Positions 33,661-47,035 of a DNA stretch of 64,000 nt are shown here, in pieces (position 1 is the stretch's first letter; the number at the start of each line of letters is the position of its first letter). The notes beneath the pieces were generated by a model. That model was given only the letters and a program-made list of their open reading frames with translations. It was not told the DNA's origin and did not search any database. A program made the translations under genes and the position numbers. The DNA comes from Candidatus Poribacteria bacterium (GTDB lineage: Bacteria > Poribacteria > WGA-4E > WGA-3G). Where the stretch lies: the NCBI GenBank assembly GCA_022828145.1, contig JAJEJA010000030.1, positions 1-64,000 on the forward strand, written 5' to 3'.

Positions 33661-34536
33661 CTATAGTTGAAACATCTGTGGCGGAGGACTTTGTTTTCCG
33701 TAGGATGACATATCAACAACTTCTTTAACATAAGCAAAATGAATATCATTCTCTTTTGAAAAGAGATGAAAAAGCCGATCAACAATTATTGTGGTTATTA
33801 ATGGACGTTCAACAGCAACAACATGATACCTTAACTTACCAACCACACCAGACGGTATGAATTCGAAGCGAACATAAGGTTTTTCACCTATCTCTTCACA
33901 AATAGCAGATGTCACCTCAGCTGCCTCTCTACACATAATCTGTTCAGCTTTCGTTATATTTGATTGATATGTTAACCGTATAATCACCTCATCAAGTATG
34001 TATTTTTCATCCCGTGTGTAGTTTACAACAGTCCAACTGAAAAGATGCAGGTTTGCAACCAATACACTTCTACCTGACCTTTCTTCACTACTCACTGTGC
34101 CACCAACCTGATCAAGTATGGTATGCATCACTGTTATTTTTTTTACATCTCCGATTAATTGTCCGAGTATCACTCTATCGCCAATTCGGTACGGTCTTTT
34201 TAATATAATTAGCAACCATGCTGCCAGATTCGTAATGGGGTTGCGCATCCCCCAACTCAGAACTGTCATGATGAAACCGATCGACAAACCGAGTAACCCG
34301 AATGTGTCTGAAAACAGAAAAATGATAACAGCTGCCATGGTAAACATGAAGGAATATCGCCAAATAAAAAAGAATCTGTCTGAATTTTCAGGTTTATAGG
34401 CACGTTTGTCAACATACTTACGCATTTGCAATGAAATATATGTGTAGATAATGATAGTACAAATTGTTATTCCAACGACCCATACCACAGAGATATATTT
34501 AAAATTCAGTATCGTATTCAAAAGGTTATTTAACAT
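33661..34536 (-). CDS. Mechanosensitive ion channel MscS family protein (paralog A)
   Basis: MscS-type RPYRIGDRVILGQLIGDVKKITVMHTIL; similar to the neighbouring ORF. Confidence 0.82.
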   Translation of the reverse strand: MLNNLLNTILNFKYISVVWVVGITICTIIIYTYISLQMRKYVDKRAYKPENSDRFFFIWRYSFMFTMAAVIIFLFSDTFGLLGLSIGFIMTVLSWGMRNPITNLAAWLLIILKRPYRIGDRVILGQLIGDVKKITVMHTILDQVGGTVSSEERSGRSVLVANLHLFSWTVVNYTRDEKYILDEVIIRLTYQSNITKAEQIMCREAAEVTSAICEEIGEKPYVRFEFIPSGVVGKLRYHVVAVERPLITTIIVDRLFHLFSKENDIHFAYVKEVVDMSSYGKQSPPPQMFQL

Positions 34537-34559
34537 TGATATATTCCACCTATTCTGAT

Positions 34560-35444
34560 TTATTCAGGCTTCAACATCGCTTGGTCTTTCCATGAATATA
34601 TGATTTCTGTGTGTGCATAACAGAATTCAACATTATCATTGATAGAGAACTCATGAAAGACTATCTTGACAATATCACTTAGGCTGCTTGCTCTATCAAC
34701 GGGTCGGCATTTGTATCGAAGTCTCATCATGACCCCGGCATCAAACAATTCAGCTCTTATAAACGGTTCTTCGTTAATATCCGCGATCACCTCAGCAGTC
34801 ACCTCTTTTGCTGCATTTACCAGAATTCGTTCAGCTTCCTGCCAGTTAGATTCGAAAGTGATACGGACAGGAACTTCTACCAGTATGTATTCTTCCTCAA
34901 GCGTGAAATTTGTAATAGTTTGACCAAATAGAATTGCGTTTGGGATAAGTATTCCCCTTCCCGACCGTTCTTCACTTGACACTGTTCCACCGACCTGATT
35001 AAGGATGACATGTGTTAACGTAATATCCATAACATCTCCAGTAATCCCAGCAATAATGACCCTATCTCCAATTTTGAAAGGTCTTTTAAGAATGAGCATT
35101 AACCAAGCTGCGATACCGGTTACGGGTGCTTGTAACGACCAACCTAAGACCATTCCCAGGAAACCAGCGGAAATACCGAGTGTTTTAAGCGAACCACTTA
35201 AACTTATTATTCCAAAAATCGCTATAATAGCTGTCCAGACATACCCCCAGACTGCCATGAAGTTTTGTGCATTTGTTTCAATTTGGGCATGTTTATACAC
35301 ATATTTTTTGACGAAATGTCCAGTAATCGCCTTGAGGATCACTAAGGTAATGATCGTAATCGCACTGAGCAGAATTCCTCTAAATGGAGATTCAATAATC
35401 GCCTTTAAATAGTTCCCCAACTGGGTAAAAAAATCAAGTAACAT
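34560..35444 (-). CDS. Mechanosensitive ion channel MscS family protein (paralog B)
   Basis: RPFKIGDRVIIAGITGDVMDITLTHVILNQ...IPNAILFGQTITNFT. Confidence 0.88.
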   Translation of the reverse strand: MLLDFFTQLGNYLKAIIESPFRGILLSAITIITLVILKAITGHFVKKYVYKHAQIETNAQNFMAVWGYVWTAIIAIFGIISLSGSLKTLGISAGFLGMVLGWSLQAPVTGIAAWLMLILKRPFKIGDRVIIAGITGDVMDITLTHVILNQVGGTVSSEERSGRGILIPNAILFGQTITNFTLEEEYILVEVPVRITFESNWQEAERILVNAAKEVTAEVIADINEEPFIRAELFDAGVMMRLRYKCRPVDRASSLSDIVKIVFHEFSINDNVEFCYAHTEIIYSWKDQAMLKPE

Positions 35445-35711: not shown

Positions 35712-37193
35712 CTATTGTAAAGCGATGTTTCCTGATAGGGAATAGAAGATATTTAGAAAACCGATGAAAATCGTGGGTATAACAAATACAGTCAGAAGCA
35801 CTAATGCACTCTTTGTAGAGTAGAAACTCTCTGTCTCGTCAGCAGATTCAAAATACATTGCTTTGATAATACGAGCGTAGTAATAGAGAGAGATGACACT
35901 GTTTAGCAATCCGATAAACGCTAACCAATAGAAACCGCTGTCAATGTCAATGACTGCCTTGAACAGAAAGAATTTACCGAAAAAACCAGCAAAGGGTGGA
36001 ATGCCAGTTAGCGAAATAAGGAAAATCATCATCGCACTGGCGATTAACGGGGACCGAGACGAGAGACCACGAAATCCCTCAATCATTTCACTACCTGAAT
36101 CGTTTGCGACAAGGATTACAACGTAAAATGCGCCTAAGTTCATAAAGAGATAAACTATAAGGTAGAAAAGAATTGCACTGAGTCCATCAGAAGTCAGTAG
36201 CACACCCCCCATCAATAGATATCCCCCGTGTGCTATGCTCGAATACGCTAACAGACGTTTTACATTACGTTGCGGAAGCGCAGCAAGGTTCCCGACAGTC
36301 ATTGTGAGTGCCGAGACGACTGCCAATAATAAGCCCCAATCAACTGAATCCAGAATTCCCGGTGCCTTAAACCCTGAATAAAAGAATCTGAGGAAAAGTG
36401 CGAATCCAGCGGCTTTTGAAGCAACAGATAGGAATGCTGTTATAGGGATAGGTGCGCCTTCATAAACATCGGGGGACCACATGTGAAAGGGAACAGAAGC
36501 AATTTTGTATCCGATACCTGCGAGTATAAATGTTATCGCGATGAGAAGACCGAGGGCAGTTACTTCACCTGAAGCGAGGACTTCGGGTAGTCGCTCACCA
36601 ATTTCTGCGAGATCCCCTGTTCCTGTCATACCGAAAATCAAGGAGAGTCCAAAAAGCATTGTTCCTGATGCTACAGCACCATAAGTAATGTATTTGAATG
36701 CTGCTTCACTCGAACGCGGACTATGCGTTAAGAATCCTGCAAGGATATAGGAGGTAAGACTTACCGTTTCTAAAGAGATGAATATCATCAGCAGATTGGT
36801 TGACGATGCCATCAGGAACATCCCGAAGGTAACAGCTAACAGCAATGCAAAATACTCACCCTTTAGTTTCACATCAAGTTCTTCAGAACGGAGCGAGAAA
36901 AGAATAGTTGCGGAGGTCGCTAATATCAGGAGAATCTTGAAAAAAATCGCGAATTCATCCAACCGAATCATCCCAAAGAAAAGGTTTCTCGGTTCATCAG
37001 TACCGATTATAGAATTTGTGATGAGGATAGCCAATAAGGAGCATCCGAGTCCGACAAGTGCCAGATATGCGACTTTATCACTTTCACGGTCTTTTACGAT
37101 GAGATCAAAGATAATAACAGCAGCAGCGAAGACGACGAGAAGTATCTCCGGTATGAAATAGAGAAGGCTTTCAATGTTCTTTAAACTATCCAC
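35712..37193 (-). CDS. nuoN: NADH-quinone oxidoreductase subunit N
   Basis: Proton-channel family; GGYLLMGG, FMNLGAF. Confidence 0.93.
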   Translation of the reverse strand: MDSLKNIESLLYFIPEILLVVFAAAVIIFDLIVKDRESDKVAYLALVGLGCSLLAILITNSIIGTDEPRNLFFGMIRLDEFAIFFKILLILATSATILFSLRSEELDVKLKGEYFALLLAVTFGMFLMASSTNLLMIFISLETVSLTSYILAGFLTHSPRSSEAAFKYITYGAVASGTMLFGLSLIFGMTGTGDLAEIGERLPEVLASGEVTALGLLIAITFILAGIGYKIASVPFHMWSPDVYEGAPIPITAFLSVASKAAGFALFLRFFYSGFKAPGILDSVDWGLLLAVVSALTMTVGNLAALPQRNVKRLLAYSSIAHGGYLLMGGVLLTSDGLSAILFYLIVYLFMNLGAFYVVILVANDSGSEMIEGFRGLSSRSPLIASAMMIFLISLTGIPPFAGFFGKFFLFKAVIDIDSGFYWLAFIGLLNSVISLYYYARIIKAMYFESADETESFYSTKSALVLLTVFVIPTIFIGFLNIFYSLSGNIALQ

Positions 37194-37202
37194 ACATTTC
37201 TC

Positions 37203-38732
37203 CTATAGACCTGCCTGCAGTATACCCGACATCTTCGTGGTCAAGTTTACGACTGATTCGCTGAACATTTCAATTGCAAAATGGGGCCAAATACCGAGGA
37301 CAATGACTAATATTCCGAGTGGTACCAAAGTCAATATCTCGCGTCCGTTGATTTCTGGTAGTTCTTCATATTTTGGATTGAGTGTTCCTAAGAAAACCCT
37401 TTGAAGTGTCCATAGGAAATATGCTGCACCGACAACAATCCCTATCGTAGATAGAATAGTCAACATCGGGAAACTTTCAAAAGCACCGATCAGAGAAAAT
37501 GCTTCGCCTATGAATCCGCTTAATCCGGGTAATCCCAAGGATGCCATGAAAGCGAGCGTAGTAATACCGGTATAAACAGGCATTCTACTTCCTAATCCAC
37601 CGAAGCCATTGATTTCACGGTGGTGTGCACGGTCATAGAGTACACCGACAAGCAGGAATAGCATAGCACTGATGACACCGTGATTAAACATCTGTAATAT
37701 TGCGCCAGTAATACCCAATTCATTACCTGCGGCAAGCCCCAAGATAACAAATCCCATGTGTCCAATACTGGAATATGCGACCAACTTCTTGAAATCTGTC
37801 TGTGCCAATGCACAGAATGATCCGTAAACGATATTTACAAATCCGAGAATAGCCAAACTATTACCTACTATACCATCTCCATTAGCGAAGACTGCCATGC
37901 CTTCAGGGAACATATCCATATTAATACGGACTAACCCGTAAGTTCCCATTTTTAGGAGGACTCCTGCAAGGATAACACTAATCGCTGTTGGTGCTTCAAC
38001 GTGTGCGTCGGGTAGCCATGTATGAAATGGAAAGATCGGTACTTTGACAGCAAACCCGATAAAGAAACCGATAAATACCCACATCTGGAATGTTGAATCA
38101 GCGAGGGCGTGTCCTGGGTCACTTGCCAATCTTATGAGTTCGGGAATTTCAAATGTACGTGCCCCTGGGTCTCCACTCTTGAGATAGACTGCAATCAATG
38201 CAACCAGCATCAGCACACTACCGAATAAGGTATAGAGAAAGAACTTGATTGCTGCATATTCTCTACGCGGTCCACCCCACACACCGATAAGGAAATACAT
38301 CGGTAGCAGTGTCAACTCAAAAAAGACAAAGAATAGGAAGAGGTCCAACGCAGCAAAAAAGCCTAACATCCCTGTTTCAAGCAACAGGAACAACGCCATA
38401 TACGCTTTTATACCCTTATCTATGTTTCGCCAAGAGGCAAGCACACAAATTGGACCTAAAAGGGCAGTAAGGAGCATTAGCGTTACGCTTAAACCGTCAA
38501 TACCGACAAAATACTGGATATTGAATGCCTCAATCCAAGGAACAGGACCGTGTCTGAACTGTTTACCGGCGATTGTACGGTCATAGTCAATAAATAGGTA
38601 CACTGCAATAATCAGCGGTACAAGTGTAAAAACGAGCGCAACGCGTTTTATCATTTCTTCCGATTCTCTCGGGAGAAGTAAAACAACGATCATCCCAATC
38701 AACGGGACAAAAATCATTAGGGATAATAACAT
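37203..38732 (-). CDS. nuoM: NADH-quinone oxidoreductase subunit M
   Basis: FPFHTWLPDAHVEAPTAISVILAGVLLKMGTYG. Confidence 0.95.
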   Translation of the reverse strand: MLLSLMIFVPLIGMIVVLLLPRESEEMIKRVALVFTLVPLIIAVYLFIDYDRTIAGKQFRHGPVPWIEAFNIQYFVGIDGLSVTLMLLTALLGPICVLASWRNIDKGIKAYMALFLLLETGMLGFFAALDLFLFFVFFELTLLPMYFLIGVWGGPRREYAAIKFFLYTLFGSVLMLVALIAVYLKSGDPGARTFEIPELIRLASDPGHALADSTFQMWVFIGFFIGFAVKVPIFPFHTWLPDAHVEAPTAISVILAGVLLKMGTYGLVRINMDMFPEGMAVFANGDGIVGNSLAILGFVNIVYGSFCALAQTDFKKLVAYSSIGHMGFVILGLAAGNELGITGAILQMFNHGVISAMLFLLVGVLYDRAHHREINGFGGLGSRMPVYTGITTLAFMASLGLPGLSGFIGEAFSLIGAFESFPMLTILSTIGIVVGAAYFLWTLQRVFLGTLNPKYEELPEINGREILTLVPLGILVIVLGIWPHFAIEMFSESVVNLTTKMSGILQAGL

Positions 38733-38800
38733 TTAGTGGGAATCCTCCTTATCCCATCGGGTCTGTATTTTTATGCCTGTATTTCATATATTGAAGGCAA

Positions 38801-41044
38801 CTACAATGCCCTGAAAATCAAAATTATTAACACTATCCCACCGATAACGACAAAGAGATAGGTTTGAATTGCTCCTGTTTGTATTCTACGTATTCTGCCA
38901 CCAGCTGCCCAGGTAACCTCAGCAACTCGGTTGACGATTCCATCCACCACACGTCTATCAAAATAGCCGATAATTGCGGCGAAGACCCTACGTGTTGCGA
39001 AACCTACACCGTTGACGATACCATCAATGACAGATAGATCAAAACGTGCAAAGAGTCGAGATTTCCAAACCGTGAGTGCAACTAATACGCCGTCGTAGAA
39101 TTCATCAAAATAGTACTTATGCCAGAATAGGTTGTAGACAGGACGGAAAGTCGTTGCGACAGATTCTGCCGAGAACCTTCGTCTATGGTAGAACAACCAA
39201 GACAGCAGTATACCTAAACCCGCAACAAAGATGGATAACGCCATAGCGATATTATGTGCTCGTTTGTAAATGTAATATGCAGCATCTGCTTTTTCACCGT
39301 TTTTTCCACCCACTTCATCAGCTGCTTGTGCCTCGGAAACACCGAAGAATGAGAAACCAAACTTTGCATCACCTGTTTTAGTATCAGGGGAAACGGAAGC
39401 ATGTTGCGGGGCATGAAGATGGGGTTGTTTAGGCGGTATTACATAATCTTTGTTAAACCAGATTGTATTAACAACGGGAAAACTCAAGACAGCCAATATA
39501 ATTAACGGTGCTGCCATCACCCACGGTGATTCGTGTGCCATGTTGTGCATCTCTTTGTTGCGGGGTTCACCGAAGAATGTCATAAAGATGAGTCTAAACA
39601 TGTAAAAGGCAGTGATAAACGCTGCGCAGAGTGCCAGTCCAAACAGAATGTAGTGATGTATAGAGTTCCATTCCATTGCGCGTCCAAGTACACCCGCTAA
39701 TATTTTATCCTTACTCCAGAAGCCTGAAAAGATGAACGGTACGCCAGAAATTGACAAGGTTGCGATGAGCATTGTAATAAAGGTGATCGGCATTTTCTGT
39801 CTGAGTCCACCCATATTCCGCATATCTTGATCCGGTGGGATTTCGGAACCGTGTTCGTGAACTAAATTTTCGTGTACTAAACTGAGGTCGTCGTGTTCAT
39901 GTGCTTCGTCATCCGCATGTGCTTCATCATGCCCATGGGTATGTTGACTGTGTGAATGCATTGCGTGGAAGGCATGGATAACACTGCCAGAACCGAGGAA
40001 CAGCAACGCTTTGAAAAAGGCATGCGTTGTAAGATGGAATAGTCCTGCAACATAACTTCCTGCACCAATTGCTAACATCATATAACCGAGTTGACTGACC
40101 GTAGAGTATGCCAACACGCGCTTAATGTCAAAACGGACGATAGCAATAGTAGCGGCGACGATTGCGGTAATCCCGCCAACATAAGCGATAACCAAAGATG
40201 AAGGAAATGTCAAGATTGGGAACATCCGAGCAGTGAGATATACGCCTGCAGCAACCATAGTCGCTGCGTGGATTAACGCACTGACAGGTGTTGGACCTTC
40301 CATCGCGTCTGGTAGCCACGTATGCAACGGTACTTGGGCAGATTTTCCAATCGCACCACAGAAGATGAGAATACCTGCTATTGAAAGCCAGACTATGTCT
40401 CCAGTGGCTAATTCTGCTGCTGCACGCGTAAAGATGCCATCTTGTGCACCATCAAATAGTGAAAATGTTTTGAATTTTGTGAATAACATCATCATGCCGA
40501 TGAACATGCCTATGTCACCGACGCGAGTTGTTAGGAATGCTTTCTTACACGCATTCGCAGCGGAATTCTTTTCAAACCAGAAACCGATGAGAAGATAGGA
40601 ACAGAGACCGACGAGTTCCCAACCGATATAGATACCGAGCAGGTTATCTGATACCACCAAGAATAGCATTGAAAAAGAAAAGAGCGATAGATAGGCGAAG
40701 AACCTTGGATAACGCGGGTCCCCATGCATATAACCTATTGAGAAGATATGCACAAGACTACTGACCAGTGTGACAACGATTAGCATTATCACAGTTACGC
40801 TGTCAAGGTAGAACCCCATTGAGATGGTGATTTCACCGATAGATATCCAATCAACTGCTAACGGTTCTGGTTCGGGGACGACATCCCGCAATAGAATGAA
40901 AGAGCAGATAAGTGCGATAAGCATTGCCGCCGTTGACAGCAGGTCTTGACGAGGAAAAGTCCGTTTTGCTATACCTGATAGCGCGAAGATCGCAAAGGCA
41001 ACAAGCGGTGCAAGTAAGATGATGCTAATTAAGGGAACGACCAT
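38801..41044 (-). CDS. nuoL: NADH-quinone oxidoreductase subunit L with His-rich insertion
   Basis: AQVPLHTWLPDAMEGPTPVSALIHAATMVAAGVYL; His/Asp/Glu insertion HAMHSHSQHTHGHDEAHADDEAHEHDD. Confidence 0.95.
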   Translation of the reverse strand: MVVPLISIILLAPLVAFAIFALSGIAKRTFPRQDLLSTAAMLIALICSFILLRDVVPEPEPLAVDWISIGEITISMGFYLDSVTVIMLIVVTLVSSLVHIFSIGYMHGDPRYPRFFAYLSLFSFSMLFLVVSDNLLGIYIGWELVGLCSYLLIGFWFEKNSAANACKKAFLTTRVGDIGMFIGMMMLFTKFKTFSLFDGAQDGIFTRAAAELATGDIVWLSIAGILIFCGAIGKSAQVPLHTWLPDAMEGPTPVSALIHAATMVAAGVYLTARMFPILTFPSSLVIAYVGGITAIVAATIAIVRFDIKRVLAYSTVSQLGYMMLAIGAGSYVAGLFHLTTHAFFKALLFLGSGSVIHAFHAMHSHSQHTHGHDEAHADDEAHEHDDLSLVHENLVHEHGSEIPPDQDMRNMGGLRQKMPITFITMLIATLSISGVPFIFSGFWSKDKILAGVLGRAMEWNSIHHYILFGLALCAAFITAFYMFRLIFMTFFGEPRNKEMHNMAHESPWVMAAPLIILAVLSFPVVNTIWFNKDYVIPPKQPHLHAPQHASVSPDTKTGDAKFGFSFFGVSEAQAADEVGGKNGEKADAAYYIYKRAHNIAMALSIFVAGLGILLSWLFYHRRRFSAESVATTFRPVYNLFWHKYYFDEFYDGVLVALTVWKSRLFARFDLSVIDGIVNGVGFATRRVFAAIIGYFDRRVVDGIVNRVAEVTWAAGGRIRRIQTGAIQTYLFVVIGGIVLIILIFRAL

Positions 41045-41056
41045 ACTATTATGTTA

Positions 41057-41374
41057 TTAACCTTTCAAGGTATCCACTTCATCTGGACGTATGCTACCGA
41101 ATTCACGGTAGATTGCGAGAATAATTGCAAGAAACACGGCTGCTTCGGCTGCAGCAAGCACAATACCGAAGATGGCGATTATCTGTCCATCAATGTTATT
41201 TGGGTTGTCTGGTATTGAAACAAAGCGAGAAAATGCTACGAAATTCAGATTACAAGAATTAAGAATAAGTTCAATCCCCATCAAAATGCTGATGGCGTTT
41301 TTGCGGGTTAGCACTGCAAATATACCGAGTGAGAATAGAATTGCACTGATGACCAGATAGTGTTGTAACGTCAT
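41057..41374 (-). CDS. nuoK: NADH-quinone oxidoreductase subunit K
   Basis: MGIELILNSCNLNFVAF; AEAAVFLAIILAIYR. Confidence 0.93.
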   Translation of the reverse strand: MTLQHYLVISAILFSLGIFAVLTRKNAISILMGIELILNSCNLNFVAFSRFVSIPDNPNNIDGQIIAIFGIVLAAAEAAVFLAIILAIYREFGSIRPDEVDTLKG

Positions 41375-41402
41375 AATGTGTTATCCTACAGATACAATAG
41401 AA

Positions 41403-41924
41403 TTAGTCCCTAATTTCCTTTCGAGAAATGAGCGCAGCTCCGATTAATGCAACTAACAATAACACAGATGCCACTTCAAAAGGCAGCAAGAACTTCCCAT
41501 CCAGAATTAACTTACCGATACGTTCCGTTGTTGGTTGCAGTTGTGTTCCATCATCCGTTAGGTTTTCCCATTTGGGTGTATTGGCAATGACCGTCAGGAG
41601 CAACATCAGCAGTGCCAGCGAAATACCGCCACCTAACAGGAGCTGACCGCGCTGTATGTGGATACGCATCTCTAATCGTCCACTCGTCATCATAACACCG
41701 AAAAGGATAAGCACCAGTATACCACCGACATATACAATTACTTGTGTTGCGGCGAGGAAGTCTGCTTGTAGAAATACATAAAGACCAGCAACACCGAAAA
41801 GCGTAACCATTAACGCAAACGCTGCATGTACGATATTTCGAACACTGACCACAGCAAAAGCGGAAGCAATTGTTATCAGCGCAAATCCATAGAAAACAAA
41901 TGTTTTTAGCGATAATTCTTCCAT
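41403..41924 (-). CDS. nuoJ: NADH-quinone oxidoreductase subunit J
   Basis: NIVHAAFALMVTLFGVAGLYVFLQADFLAATQVIVYVGGILVLILFGVMMT. Confidence 0.93.
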   Translation of the reverse strand: MEELSLKTFVFYGFALITIASAFAVVSVRNIVHAAFALMVTLFGVAGLYVFLQADFLAATQVIVYVGGILVLILFGVMMTSGRLEMRIHIQRGQLLLGGGISLALLMLLLTVIANTPKWENLTDDGTQLQPTTERIGKLILDGKFLLPFEVASVLLLVALIGAALISRKEIRD

Positions 41925-41945
41925 GTAAAGTTATCCTCGCTCCCT

Positions 41946-42668
41946 TTATGCTTCAACAACCTCTGTGTTTTCTGCATCGTCTTTTTTGTACATCTCCTGC
42001 TTGTCAAAATTGAAGATTAAATCTGTCCGATCAAAGCTTGAATACTCGATACCTTCAAGTGAATCCTTCATAACAAGACATTGTGTCGGACAAACCTCTG
42101 TACAGAGACCACAATACATACAGAGGGACATATCAATATCAAACTGGTCAAGATAGAACACAACGGGGTTTCGTGTAACGACGCGCGATACTTCCTCTGT
42201 AGAAAGGGTTTCGGTTCGGTTTTCATCTCCCGATGCTTCCAGACGATCAATGACTTCTTGTGGACCTAATCGGGTTGTGATATTTGTGATTGTCATTGCG
42301 TCCTCTGACATAATCTTTTTGTCGTCACCTTCAATAATACCGATGACTTCGCGTCCATCCTTGAGATGCACCACGTTCATGCTATCCCAGAGTTGTTCAC
42401 CTTTCGGAAGTTTGTCGCCTATAATCGTAATACAGTCCACAGGACAAATCAACTCACACTTCTTGCATCCGATGCAATCCTCTATCCTGTTGTAGAGTTG
42501 ACCACGATACCCTTTTGGTATTTCTCGGACGTTCTGTTTCTTCTCAAAATCGTGTTCGTAAGGGTATTGGTGCGTCACATTCGGTTCAAAGAACTGCCGA
42601 ATTGTGATACGCATCCCAACGAGGACGGTATAAACACCTTTGTATATGTTACGTATGTATTTGTCCAT
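41946..42668 (-). CDS. nuoI: NADH-quinone oxidoreductase subunit I with long insertion between the two 4Fe-4S motifs
   Basis: CIGCKKCELICP and CMYCGLCTEVCP motifs. Confidence 0.93.
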   Translation of the reverse strand: MDKYIRNIYKGVYTVLVGMRITIRQFFEPNVTHQYPYEHDFEKKQNVREIPKGYRGQLYNRIEDCIGCKKCELICPVDCITIIGDKLPKGEQLWDSMNVVHLKDGREVIGIIEGDDKKIMSEDAMTITNITTRLGPQEVIDRLEASGDENRTETLSTEEVSRVVTRNPVVFYLDQFDIDMSLCMYCGLCTEVCPTQCLVMKDSLEGIEYSSFDRTDLIFNFDKQEMYKKDDAENTEVVEA

Positions 42669-42683
42669 GATTCAATGTTCCTT

Positions 42684-43925
42684 TCATGCAGAACTGGTTT
42701 GCGGTTCAGGTCTTCGTGCAAGGTTTCTCCCTGCAACTGCGTATACTCCGATGAGACAGACATAAATAATCGCACAACTGATTCCCATACTCCATACATC
42801 ATCATCTTTAAAAATCAATCCCCAAATCCCAGTACCTAATATGTTAAAGAATGAGATCGGTATAAAATATTTCCAGCAGAGATTCATCAGTTGATCGACG
42901 CGTAGTCGTGGCAGTGTCCATCTCAACCACATCATAACAAAAACGAGTCCTAAAGTCTTGAGAACGAATCCGGGTAATCCGCCGAGAAAATCGTAACCTG
43001 GCAATATACCCTCGTATCCTCCGAGAAAAAGCGTCACACCAATGGCACTGACTGCAAACATATTCGCATATTCAGCGATGAAGAACAGCGCAAAACGCAT
43101 ACCGCTATATTCGGTATGGAATCCCGCGACGATTTCAGATTCCGCTTCCGGCAGATCAAATGGTGTTCGGTTCACTTCAGCAATAGCAGAAATAAAAAAG
43201 ACGAAGAATGCAATAAAGGTAAAAGGTGTACGAAAGATTAGCCAGGTGAAGATACCACCAGATTGATTTTCCACAATCTCACGCATTCCCAAACTTTCAA
43301 CCAACATGATCACTGTTAATATAGATAAACCGAGTGGAATTTCGTAACTTACAATCTGTGCCGCAGAACGTAAAGACCCCAAAAGCGACCACTTACTATT
43401 TGAGGACCAACCCGCCATAATCACACCCATCACTATCACGGAGGAGATCGCCATGATATAAAAGATACCGATATTAAAATCGCTCACCAAGATGTTTTGA
43501 CCAAACGGGATTGCAGCAAAGACTGCAAAAGAACAAGCAAACATGATATAGGGGGCAAGTCGGAAGAGCAGTTTATCCCCTTGCTGTGGAATAAAGTCTT
43601 CTTTGAAGATCAGCTTTATGCCGTCTGCTAACGTTTGTAACGTCCCCCAAGGACCGACACGCATAGGACCTGTCCGGTTTTGAAAACGTGCAGCGACTTT
43701 CCGTTCTGCCAAAACTAAAACCAATGGGAGTAACGGTACAACAGCAACAAAAATACCAGCACAAACTAACATCGCGAGGACAGTTCCTAACTCCATAGGA
43801 AAATCCGGAAAAATCGGGTTGATGACATTTCCCTTAATATATGACACCAAATTTCCGGTTTCTTCTTGTATATTTTCTTGTATATTAAAATTGTGAAAAA
43901 AACTTTCAGACAAAAAATCTGACAT
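42684..43925 (-). CDS. nuoH: NADH-quinone oxidoreductase subunit H
   Basis: AERKVAARFQNRTGPMRVGPWGTLQTLADGIKLIFKED; EVNRTPFDLPEAESEIVAGFHTEYSGMRFALFF. Confidence 0.95.
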   Translation of the reverse strand: MSDFLSESFFHNFNIQENIQEETGNLVSYIKGNVINPIFPDFPMELGTVLAMLVCAGIFVAVVPLLPLVLVLAERKVAARFQNRTGPMRVGPWGTLQTLADGIKLIFKEDFIPQQGDKLLFRLAPYIMFACSFAVFAAIPFGQNILVSDFNIGIFYIMAISSVIVMGVIMAGWSSNSKWSLLGSLRSAAQIVSYEIPLGLSILTVIMLVESLGMREIVENQSGGIFTWLIFRTPFTFIAFFVFFISAIAEVNRTPFDLPEAESEIVAGFHTEYSGMRFALFFIAEYANMFAVSAIGVTLFLGGYEGILPGYDFLGGLPGFVLKTLGLVFVMMWLRWTLPRLRVDQLMNLCWKYFIPISFFNILGTGIWGLIFKDDDVWSMGISCAIIYVCLIGVYAVAGRNLARRPEPQTSSA

Positions 43926-43965
43926 TTAACATCCTTATATGGTAGATCTCCTATAACTGGATTAG

Positions 43966-45171
43966 TTATCGGTCTACCTCTCCCATCACAATATCAATAC
44001 TACCGATAATTGCGATAATATCTGCCACCATTAAACCTCTGCTCAATTCTTGTAAGGCACTCAATGCACTGAAACACGGAGAACGCCCTTTGACACGTAC
44101 CGGCTTCGGTGTCCCATCACTGACAATGTAAAATCCCAGTTCTCCCCGTGGTGCTTCACTCCGAAAATAGATTTCGCCTTTGGGGGGACGTACCGCTTTC
44201 ATATCAGCCATGACAGGCCCATCGGGTAGACCTTCTGCTAAGATCTGCCTGACGATGCACACGGATTGTCTCATTTCATCCATGCGTACTTTGTAGCGAC
44301 TCCAGCAATCTCCAACAACAGCACCTAACTCAGGAATATCTTTTGCTACAGGCACTTCATAATCAAACCGATCATAGATAGAATAGGGTTCGTCTCGTCT
44401 TAAATCCCAGTCAACACCAGAACCGCGTAAATTTGGACCGGTAGCACCGTAACTCAGTGCCATCTCTGCTGACATAACAGCGACTCCCATAGTCCGTTCA
44501 GAGAAAATGCTGTTTGATGTCAGTAGATCGTTATATTCGTCAATTTTTGGTTCAAAATAATCCAGAAATCCTTCTATTTCGTCTAAAAAATCTTGTTCAT
44601 CAATTGAACCAGGTTCCATTGGAATGATCTCTGAGACACCACCAATACGGATATAGTTATAGGTCAGACGTGCACCACATACCTTCTCAAAAAGCAGGAG
44701 TAGTCTTTCGCGATCTCGAAATGCGTAGAGAAACGGTGTAAATGCCCCAAGGTCCATCCCATACGTGCCGAAAGATAACAGATGACTGGCAATGCGATTC
44801 AATTCACAGATAAGCACACGCAGATACTCCGCACGTTCAGGAACAGCAAAATCCTTTTTCTCATCTGCTGCCATGAGTTTTTCAACAGCAAGACAGAATC
44901 CCCAATTCTGATTCATCGCTGCTACATAATCCATTCGATCGGTAAACGGTATAATTTGCGGATAAGAGAGATTCTCTGAATGTTTCTCAAAACAACGGTG
45001 TAGGTACCCGATATGTGGAATTGCCTCCCGTACAACTTCTCCATCCAATCTCAACTCAAGACGTAACACGCCGTGCGTGCTTGGGTGCTGGGGCCCCATG
45101 TTCACAACCATCTCGTCTGTGAACGGCTTAAGCTCTATCATCTTTGATTCTGTCTGTTGTGTTGTTTCCAT
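43966..45171 (-). CDS. nuoD: NADH-quinone oxidoreductase subunit D
   Basis: MGPQHPSTHGVLRLELRLDGE; RRDEPYSIYDRFDYEVP. Confidence 0.95.
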   Translation of the reverse strand: METTQQTESKMIELKPFTDEMVVNMGPQHPSTHGVLRLELRLDGEVVREAIPHIGYLHRCFEKHSENLSYPQIIPFTDRMDYVAAMNQNWGFCLAVEKLMAADEKKDFAVPERAEYLRVLICELNRIASHLLSFGTYGMDLGAFTPFLYAFRDRERLLLLFEKVCGARLTYNYIRIGGVSEIIPMEPGSIDEQDFLDEIEGFLDYFEPKIDEYNDLLTSNSIFSERTMGVAVMSAEMALSYGATGPNLRGSGVDWDLRRDEPYSIYDRFDYEVPVAKDIPELGAVVGDCWSRYKVRMDEMRQSVCIVRQILAEGLPDGPVMADMKAVRPPKGEIYFRSEAPRGELGFYIVSDGTPKPVRVKGRSPCFSALSALQELSRGLMVADIIAIIGSIDIVMGEVDR

Positions 45172-45220
45172 AGTGTGATTTGAGATATGTATTATTTAGA
45201 ATATATATTGGTGTTATTAG

Positions 45221-45706
45221 TTAATACGGCACACGCATCCCACGGTAAAAGTCGGGTTCCTTGTAATCCTTTCGTAGTGGGTATCCTTCCCAATCATCTG
45301 GGAGTAAAATGCGGCGAAGATCAGCATGTCCTTCAAAGACGATGCCATATAGGTCATAAGCTTCGCGTTCGTGCCAGTCCGCAGTTTTCCAGATGTGTGC
45401 GACGGTTGGAAGGTGTGGGTCTGTTTTCGGTACGGATGTTTTCAACACAACACTATGGCGATGTTGCATCGCATATAAATGATAAACAACGGAGAATTCC
45501 TCCTCCTTCACACCCAAATCAAGGCCACTGAGACACATCAGAGAATCAAAAGCAAGGGATCCATTTTCTGAAAGATATTGACAGACTTCAGCAATCGCAG
45601 ACGGTGTAATATTGATGCTTGCGTCTCCAGCCAATTCTGTGTCAAGACCGAGTATTGAGTCCCCAAACTTATCGGATAGGTTCTTGTAAATTTCTTCTGG
45701 TGTCAC
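45221..45706 (-). CDS. nuoC: NADH-quinone oxidoreductase subunit C
   Basis: [37 protein letters not shown]. Confidence 0.93.
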
Positions 45707-46359
45707 GTAGTTTCACTCCGGACTGTTTGTTCTGTAGCCTCAACGTTCGCACCTTCAGCAATCAGCACGTCTTCATCGGTTGCAGGTGTTTCTGTTTCTG
45801 CATTTGCTTTTTCATTTTTCTCGTGTTCGTACCATTCTGTCTTTGTAAATAGCCGTTTTAAGAAGGGAACATGTGTCCGCTTTGCGACGGTTTGGGTTTT
45901 TATTTTCTCTTGCAGCTTCAAAAGACCTTCAATTAAAGCTTCTGGTCGGGGAGGACAGCCCGGCACATAAACGTCAACCGGTATGATTCTGTCAACACCC
46001 TTTAGGACGTGGTATCCGTGCTGCCAATAGGGACCGCCGCTCGTTGCGCAGCTACCCATTGAGATGACATATTTCGGCTCAGGCATCTGTTCGTAGAGAC
46101 GCCTAATGCGTGTTGCCATTTTGAGCGTGACTGTCCCAGAGATAACCATCAGATCAGACTGGCGCGGCGTTGCACGCGGCACACCTGCTCCAAACCTATC
46201 TAAGTCATAGTTAGAAGCGGCGGCAGCCATAAACTCAATAGCACAGCAAGCAAGTCCGAATGTCATTGGCCACAGTGCAGAAGATCGTGCCCAGTTTGCT
46301 ACGGCATCAACGGATGTAACGATTAAGTTCTTGTCTAATTTGTCATCAATTATCATCAT
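45703..46359 (-). CDS. nuoB: NADH-quinone oxidoreductase subunit B
   Basis: [62 protein letters not shown]. Confidence 0.95.
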
Positions 46360-46756
46360 TTTCCTCCCTTTGGAAGGACTGTACTTCTAACTGTGTAGAA
46401 CGTATCCATTCCAGATCACCTTTTGCCCATACATAAGCAAGTCCTACTAACAAAATAGATATAAATACGAGCATTTCTACAAAAGCAAAAAGACCAAATT
46501 CACGAAAAACAACCGCCCACGGGAGCAGGAATACGACCTCTACATCAAAAATGAGGAAAATCAGAGCGATAACGTAAAAACGTGAGTTGAACTTTATCCT
46601 GGTATCGCCTATCGGGTCTTCCCCACATTCATAGGGAATATATTTTTCACCAGAGAACAACTTTGTATGTAGGAGACGTGAGACAGTAAGGTTGAGAACG
46701 ACGAATAGACAACCGACAATCAAAAAAATCAGTACATTCCCAAAATTTAAATGCAT
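46346..46756 (-). CDS. nuoA: NADH-quinone oxidoreductase subunit A
   Basis: [41 protein letters not shown]. The ATG at 46756 ([12 protein letters not shown]) fits better than the extended ORF start at 46828. Confidence 0.92.
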
Positions 46757-47035
46757 CTTATCCTCACCTATCTCGTAAACAACGTTTCTTACAATAGTTT
46801 TTGGCAGTATGCGTCTGTTTTTCCTCACGTAAAGTCTATAAAGTATATCTTAAGTAGGAACGAATTTGCAAGGAAAAAAAGTGTTACTCACGTATTTCCG
46901 TTATCTATGGTAGAATACAGAATATATACATATTCCATTAAAGACCGATTTTTGTTGCAATACATCTAAAAGTCTGCAATAATTTCATTAGATGAAGATT
47001 AAGTTGTTAAACGGGTAATATAATCTTCCCAAACT

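Follow-up and report, generated by a model that had tools for sequence, protein, structure and literature searches.

A lineage-restricted insertion, predicted to fold as an Sm-like small beta-barrel, between the two iron-sulfur motifs of NuoI in Poribacteria

Introduction

Complex I-like enzymes of 11 subunits, encoded as nuoABCDHIJKLMN without nuoE, nuoF and nuoG, occur for example in Desulfitobacterium hafniense (PMC11238625). The direct electron donor of these bacterial enzymes is an open question (PMC11238625), and according to a proposal by Moparthi and Hagerhall (cited in PMC11238625) they serve as platforms on which various donors dock. The NDH-1 complex of cyanobacteria and plastids, which is also without NuoEFG, offers a view of such docking. 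In the cryo-EM structure of the T. elongatus complex, Lys86, Lys89 and Lys91 of NdhI touch ferredoxin, and the NdhI-bound N6a is the cluster that ferredoxin reduces (PMC7021789). Close to this electron entry a separate subunit, the SH3-like small beta-barrel NdhS, occupies a groove of NdhI; the authors regard it as a foothold for NdhV, not as a direct binder of ferredoxin (PMC7021789). Lineage-specific insertions in subunits of the peripheral arm have a precedent in the G-loop of E. coli NuoG, a stretch of 94 residues with only two helical turns that steadies the contact with NuoEFG (PMC8357420).

Here we analyse a nuoI gene from a window of 64,000 nucleotides (positions 1 to 64,000 of contig JAJEJA010000030.1, assembly GCA_022828145.1, Candidatus Poribacteria bacterium). 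Like NuoI/NdhI (Nqo9, TYKY) in general, the encoded protein has two CxxCxxCxxxC motifs and its gene lies between nuoH and nuoJ, yet unlike them it carries about 67 extra residues, with a predicted barrel, between the two motifs. This insert is apparently not described in the literature searched.

Results

A NuoI with a lengthened inter-cluster region

The nuoI gene is part of an 11-gene cluster without nuoE, nuoF and nuoG (Table 1), and its reading frame (42668 to 41946) is intact, with zero internal stops. The insert splits the match of the NCBIfam NuoI model TIGR01971, so that the protein scores 85.5 bits, below the cut-off of 113.05, and automatic annotation may miss it. Despite this score the protein clearly belongs to NuoI, given that the eight cysteines of the two 4Fe-4S motifs are present in the NuoI arrangement (C65-x2-C-x2-C-x3-C75 and C183-x2-C-x2-C-x3-C193) and that the gene holds the NuoI position in the nuo cluster. 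Downstream of nuoN lie two neighbouring genes for MscS-like channels (291 and 294 aa, 33661-35444) that look like a tandem duplication. In some relatives the 11-gene cluster contains an additional open reading frame of 516-618 aa, located either between nuoB and nuoC or between nuoC and nuoD (L033:2850, L041:12069, L043:3553, L044:3890).

Between C75 and C183 lie 107 residues, the count of the original prediction, which the 240-aa frame gave again on re-examination. Measured from first cysteine to first cysteine the spacing is 118. T. elongatus NdhI has 40 (C63 to C103; 6hum_I), the second, canonical Poribacteria NuoI 43-48, and the closest relatives without the insert 51. The net insertion thus amounts to about 67 residues relative to the closest relatives and about 78 relative to cyanobacterial NdhI. 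An insertion of about 75 residues, as originally proposed, falls inside this range, although the 88-residue string quoted for it holds some 20 residues of an ancestral hairpin. It is at the tip of this hairpin, which follows the first cluster motif and reads for example KVPKGTDLGSTSNGTLKRLLVPRFDID in insert-less relatives, that the extra residues begin. The ferredoxin-contacting lysines of NdhI fall in the same inter-cluster loop (positions verified on 6hum_I) and are not kept in insert-bearing NuoI.

Table 1. Features of the nuoI locus, in window coordinates
Feature	Position	Strand	Size or residues	Basis
nuoABCDHIJKLMN cluster, without nuoE, nuoF, nuoG	35712..46828	minus		gene order and profile matches
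nuoI with inserted domain	41946..42668	minus	240 aa	TIGR01971 match in two pieces
First 4Fe-4S motif, CIGCKKCELIC	42444..42476	minus	residues 65-75	cysteines invariant in alignment
Lengthened inter-cluster region, about 67 extra residues relative to nearest insert-less NuoI	42159..42422	minus	residues 83-170	sequence comparison
Sm/LSm-like small beta-barrel (predicted)	42171..42383	minus	residues 96-166	AlphaFold2, Foldseek, weak Pfam LSM
Strand 3-4 loop, about 18 residues longer in family f1 and genus g11	42225..42278	minus	residues 131-148	alignment
Second 4Fe-4S motif, CMYCGLCTEVC	42090..42122	minus	residues 183-193	cysteines invariant in alignment

The insert is predicted to fold as an Sm-like barrel

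An AlphaFold2 model of full-length NuoI is of low overall confidence (mean pLDDT 50), with the insert among its better parts (strand blocks 65-77). Modelled alone, in the compact version of family f4 and with a 35-sequence alignment, the insert reaches a pLDDT of 65, most strands lying at 72-82, and displays five strands with a short turn ahead of the last. Foldseek matches the full-length model to Sm/LSm/Hfq proteins and the domain model to YgdR/DUF903 and Hfq (probability 1.00, E 0.005-0.04), with target-normalised TM-scores of up to 0.75 and no E-value below 0.001. The Pfam LSM profile yields weak matches, short of its cut-off, in 5 of 35 members (best E 0.0027), and the stretch VVHLKDGREVIGIIEGDD resembles, by eye, an Sm1 motif. 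Alignment by hhalign to YgdR and to an archaeal Sm protein gives weak matches in a sensible register, and alignment to Hfq none; these matches serve as leads. Searches by Pfam, against PDB sequences and with DUF903 returned no significant homologue of the insert, and DUF903 itself was not found in the source genome. Nor did we find in that genome a second copy of the insert, which speaks against its recruitment from a protein encoded there.

Given the models, the structural matches, the order of strands and the weak Sm1-like motif, we consider it likely that the insert is a five-stranded small beta-barrel of the Sm type. The likeness to Sm/LSm/Hfq and YgdR/DUF903 proteins lies in the predicted five-strand topology and in a hydrophobic-x-K-D-G/x...G pattern; unlike these proteins, the Poribacteria barrel stays below Pfam cut-offs and is inserted in an iron-sulfur protein.

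The insert is genuine and under purifying selection

We find the insert in frame in 64 independent contigs, among them the finished chromosomes OY282386.1, OX638316.1, OX638352.1 and OY282444.1. A frameshift, chimera or assembly artefact, the refutation foreseen by the original prediction, has thus a negligible probability, as dozens of independent assemblies keep an open frame with the same boundaries and as the insert itself bears a signature of selection. Comparing the window with members of its own family, we obtain a dN/dS of about 0.05-0.14 for the insert as against 0.005-0.04 for the core, some of the synonymous distances being saturated; the insert is clearly under purifying selection, though it evolves faster than the core. 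K103, D104, G110, G114 and K118 are invariant. Hairpin tips accept insertions, and the length of the strand 3-4 loop varies, as would be expected if the insert were a tolerated ornament that arose by chance and has no specific role. Such a reading is unlikely, however, in view of these invariant residues, of the low dN/dS and of the fact that, once gained, the insert was lost from none of the lineages sampled.

Conservation peaks in the stem and in strands 1-2, the parts beside the NuoI core, and is lowest in the strand 3-4 loop. The net charge of the insert varies between -7 and +5. The acidity to which attention had been drawn is confined to the family of the window, other families being neutral or positive. 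Since charge is unconserved, acidity should carry no weight, and a conserved acidic docking surface is excluded. A pattern of this kind would suit a structural brace or cap, in which the barrel packs on NuoI, NuoC, NuoD or NuoB, binds no donor, and protects or steadies the tip of the peripheral arm that the missing NuoG leaves exposed. This is a serious rival, because conservation is highest beside the core and because an insertion in E. coli NuoG is documented to brace the arm (PMC8357420). The two insertions differ in subunit, site and structure, and the NuoEFG contact that the G-loop steadies is missing from the Poribacteria 11-gene cluster. Against a brace, the attachment point is a donor-contact loop and not a subunit seam known from NDH-1, and some complexes of the same gene type, described below, do without the barrel; we regard a brace as possible but somewhat doubtful.

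A probable single gain within Poribacteria

The insert is present in 73 of 85 Poribacteria genomes, finished chromosomes included: 57 of family f1, 2 of f2, 3 of f3, 9 of f4 and 1 each of f7 and f8. Part of the f1 count is defined by an uninterrupted match across the insert, its residues not being read individually, and one counted f4 gene (G046) is cut within the insert by the contig end. Most of f2, f3, f4, f7 and f8 have a spacing of 99-104 from first cysteine to first cysteine; a single f3 genome reaches 112, and f1, like genus g11 within f4, shows 117-118. The NuoI of one f8 genome (L130) has a further insertion ahead of the first cluster motif, around RNIFLNEQKVKAKWGQHRTVSN.

In a maximum-likelihood tree of NuoD all insert-bearing genomes lie on one side of a single branch (90/93), with f5 outside, and g11 adjoins f1 (support 86/83). 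In the simplest history a compact domain was gained once, and one of its loops expanded once thereafter. The sister family f5 combines a homologous, insert-less NuoI (spacing 51) with a complex of the 11-gene type; likewise, in the bacterium L131 the 11-gene cluster itself carries an insert-less NuoI with a spacing of 51. The insert is therefore not required, and the idea that it is obligatory for complexes without NuoEFG is ruled out. Co-occurrence with the loss of nuoEFG, by which the original prediction was to be checked, fails on the same two cases. The f5 nuoI is separate from the 11-gene-type cluster and in several genomes has a further nuoI-like gene and thiC- and moaA-like genes in its vicinity (L053-L057).

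Canonical NuoI of the same genomes and relatives in other phyla are without the insert. In a wider scan with NuoI patterns, which favour close relatives, the insert was seen only in Poribacteria among the best 80 of 222 stretches. In a search of 149 genomes from the phylum of G085, all NuoI matches listed skip the insert, splitting around it. In 198 genomes from the phylum of G087 (a Bernardetia MAG), a search without a positive control for cysteine motifs 70-90 residues apart gave no match. These searches of two further phyla argue against a wide spread of the insert outside Poribacteria. In sum, the insert is a real, conserved and lineage-restricted variant of a known enzyme.

A second complex I in the same genome

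The description of a complex lacking NuoEFG is correct for the cluster; the source genome (5.06 Mb), however, has nuoE, nuoF and nuoG in a second complex I operon on contig C39. The insert-bearing complex is thus an additional one and does not signify loss of the NADH input of the cell. The stretch of C39 that was read (G000:C39:30000-49000, L172) contains no nuoI, and a canonical, insert-less nuoI stands alone on contig C117 (L059:8657-9199). This unlinked NuoI probably serves the second, canonical complex; in the f4 genome G038 the canonical nuoI is located within the second operon.

The operon on C39 is broken up by unrelated genes that were identified by eye: a Cu/Zn superoxide dismutase-like gene separates nuoC and nuoD, a glyoxalase-like gene nuoD and nuoE, and a DNA methyltransferase-like gene nuoE and nuoF. 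In the genus of the window the lone canonical nuoI (C117; L060-L066) adjoins IMP dehydrogenase-like and MT-A70-like methyltransferase genes.

The source genome also encodes, on contig C11, a NuoE-NuoF fusion of 558 aa (L173:7057-8730) with 2Fe-2S thioredoxin-like, FMN-binding, SLBB and 4Fe-4S domains, solitary and with no obvious partner gene nearby. Most f1-f4 genomes searched keep this fusion (G000:C11) at no less than 64% identity, which makes it a weak candidate for a partner of the insert-bearing complex: docked by the barrel, it would give a complex fed by NADH without NuoG. That is very improbable, considering that no close orthologue was found in the f5, f7 and f8 genomes searched, f7 and f8 being bearers of the insert, that in most genomes the fusion gene is unlinked to the cluster, and that the fusion could serve another enzyme.

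Discussion

What does a barrel do between the two clusters of NuoI? Our preferred reading, to which we give a little less than an even chance, is that of an accessory domain that shapes the access of a soluble donor, either directly or as a foothold. Because the hairpin corresponds to the ferredoxin-contact loop of cyanobacterial NDH-1 and because the NuoEFG cap is missing, the barrel would be placed at an exposed electron-entry face around N6a. Such a built-in domain may select the donor that docks, be it ferredoxin or another reductase, and electrons would then pass from the donor through N6a, N6b and N2 to quinone. By analogy, the barrel may take on the task of the separate subunit NdhS. 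NdhS is a small beta-barrel close to the electron entry at NdhI, and the insert is predicted to form one at that of NuoI, each in a complex without NuoEFG, but NdhS is SH3-like and a protein of its own, whereas the Poribacteria barrel is predicted to be Sm-like and lies within nuoI in one open frame; NdhS is accordingly an analogue of the barrel rather than a demonstrated relative.

An accessory domain is consistent with the conservation of the insert in 73 of 85 genomes, with purifying selection, with a NuoD tree that fits one gain (90/93), with the location in the loop and with the probable use of an insert-less NuoI by the canonical complex. Against it stand the insert-less complexes of f5 and L131; a net charge of -7 to +5, hence no conserved charged docking patch; a conservation centred on the stem and on strands 1-2, as would be seen with docking but equally with packing against the complex; and the moderate pLDDT (means of 50 and 65), with no Foldseek E-value below 0.001. 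Of the docking of an alternative donor, as first put forward, the premises stand, namely a folded-looking insert in the ferredoxin-contact loop and a cluster without nuoEFG; docking itself is a plausible, partly supported reading that we infer from these premises.

It is improbable that the barrel is a receptor for one specific partner other than ferredoxin, such as the stand-alone NuoE-NuoF fusion. Were this so, Poribacteria would run two proton pumps whose electron inputs differ and are encoded by domains. If the predicted fold holds, it points to a repeated origin of small barrels next to NuoI/NdhI, in cyanobacteria as the subunit NdhS and in Poribacteria as an in-frame insertion. The insert, lying in the donor-contact loop, provides a defined handle on the search for the electron donor of these pumps in sponge-associated and marine Poribacteria.
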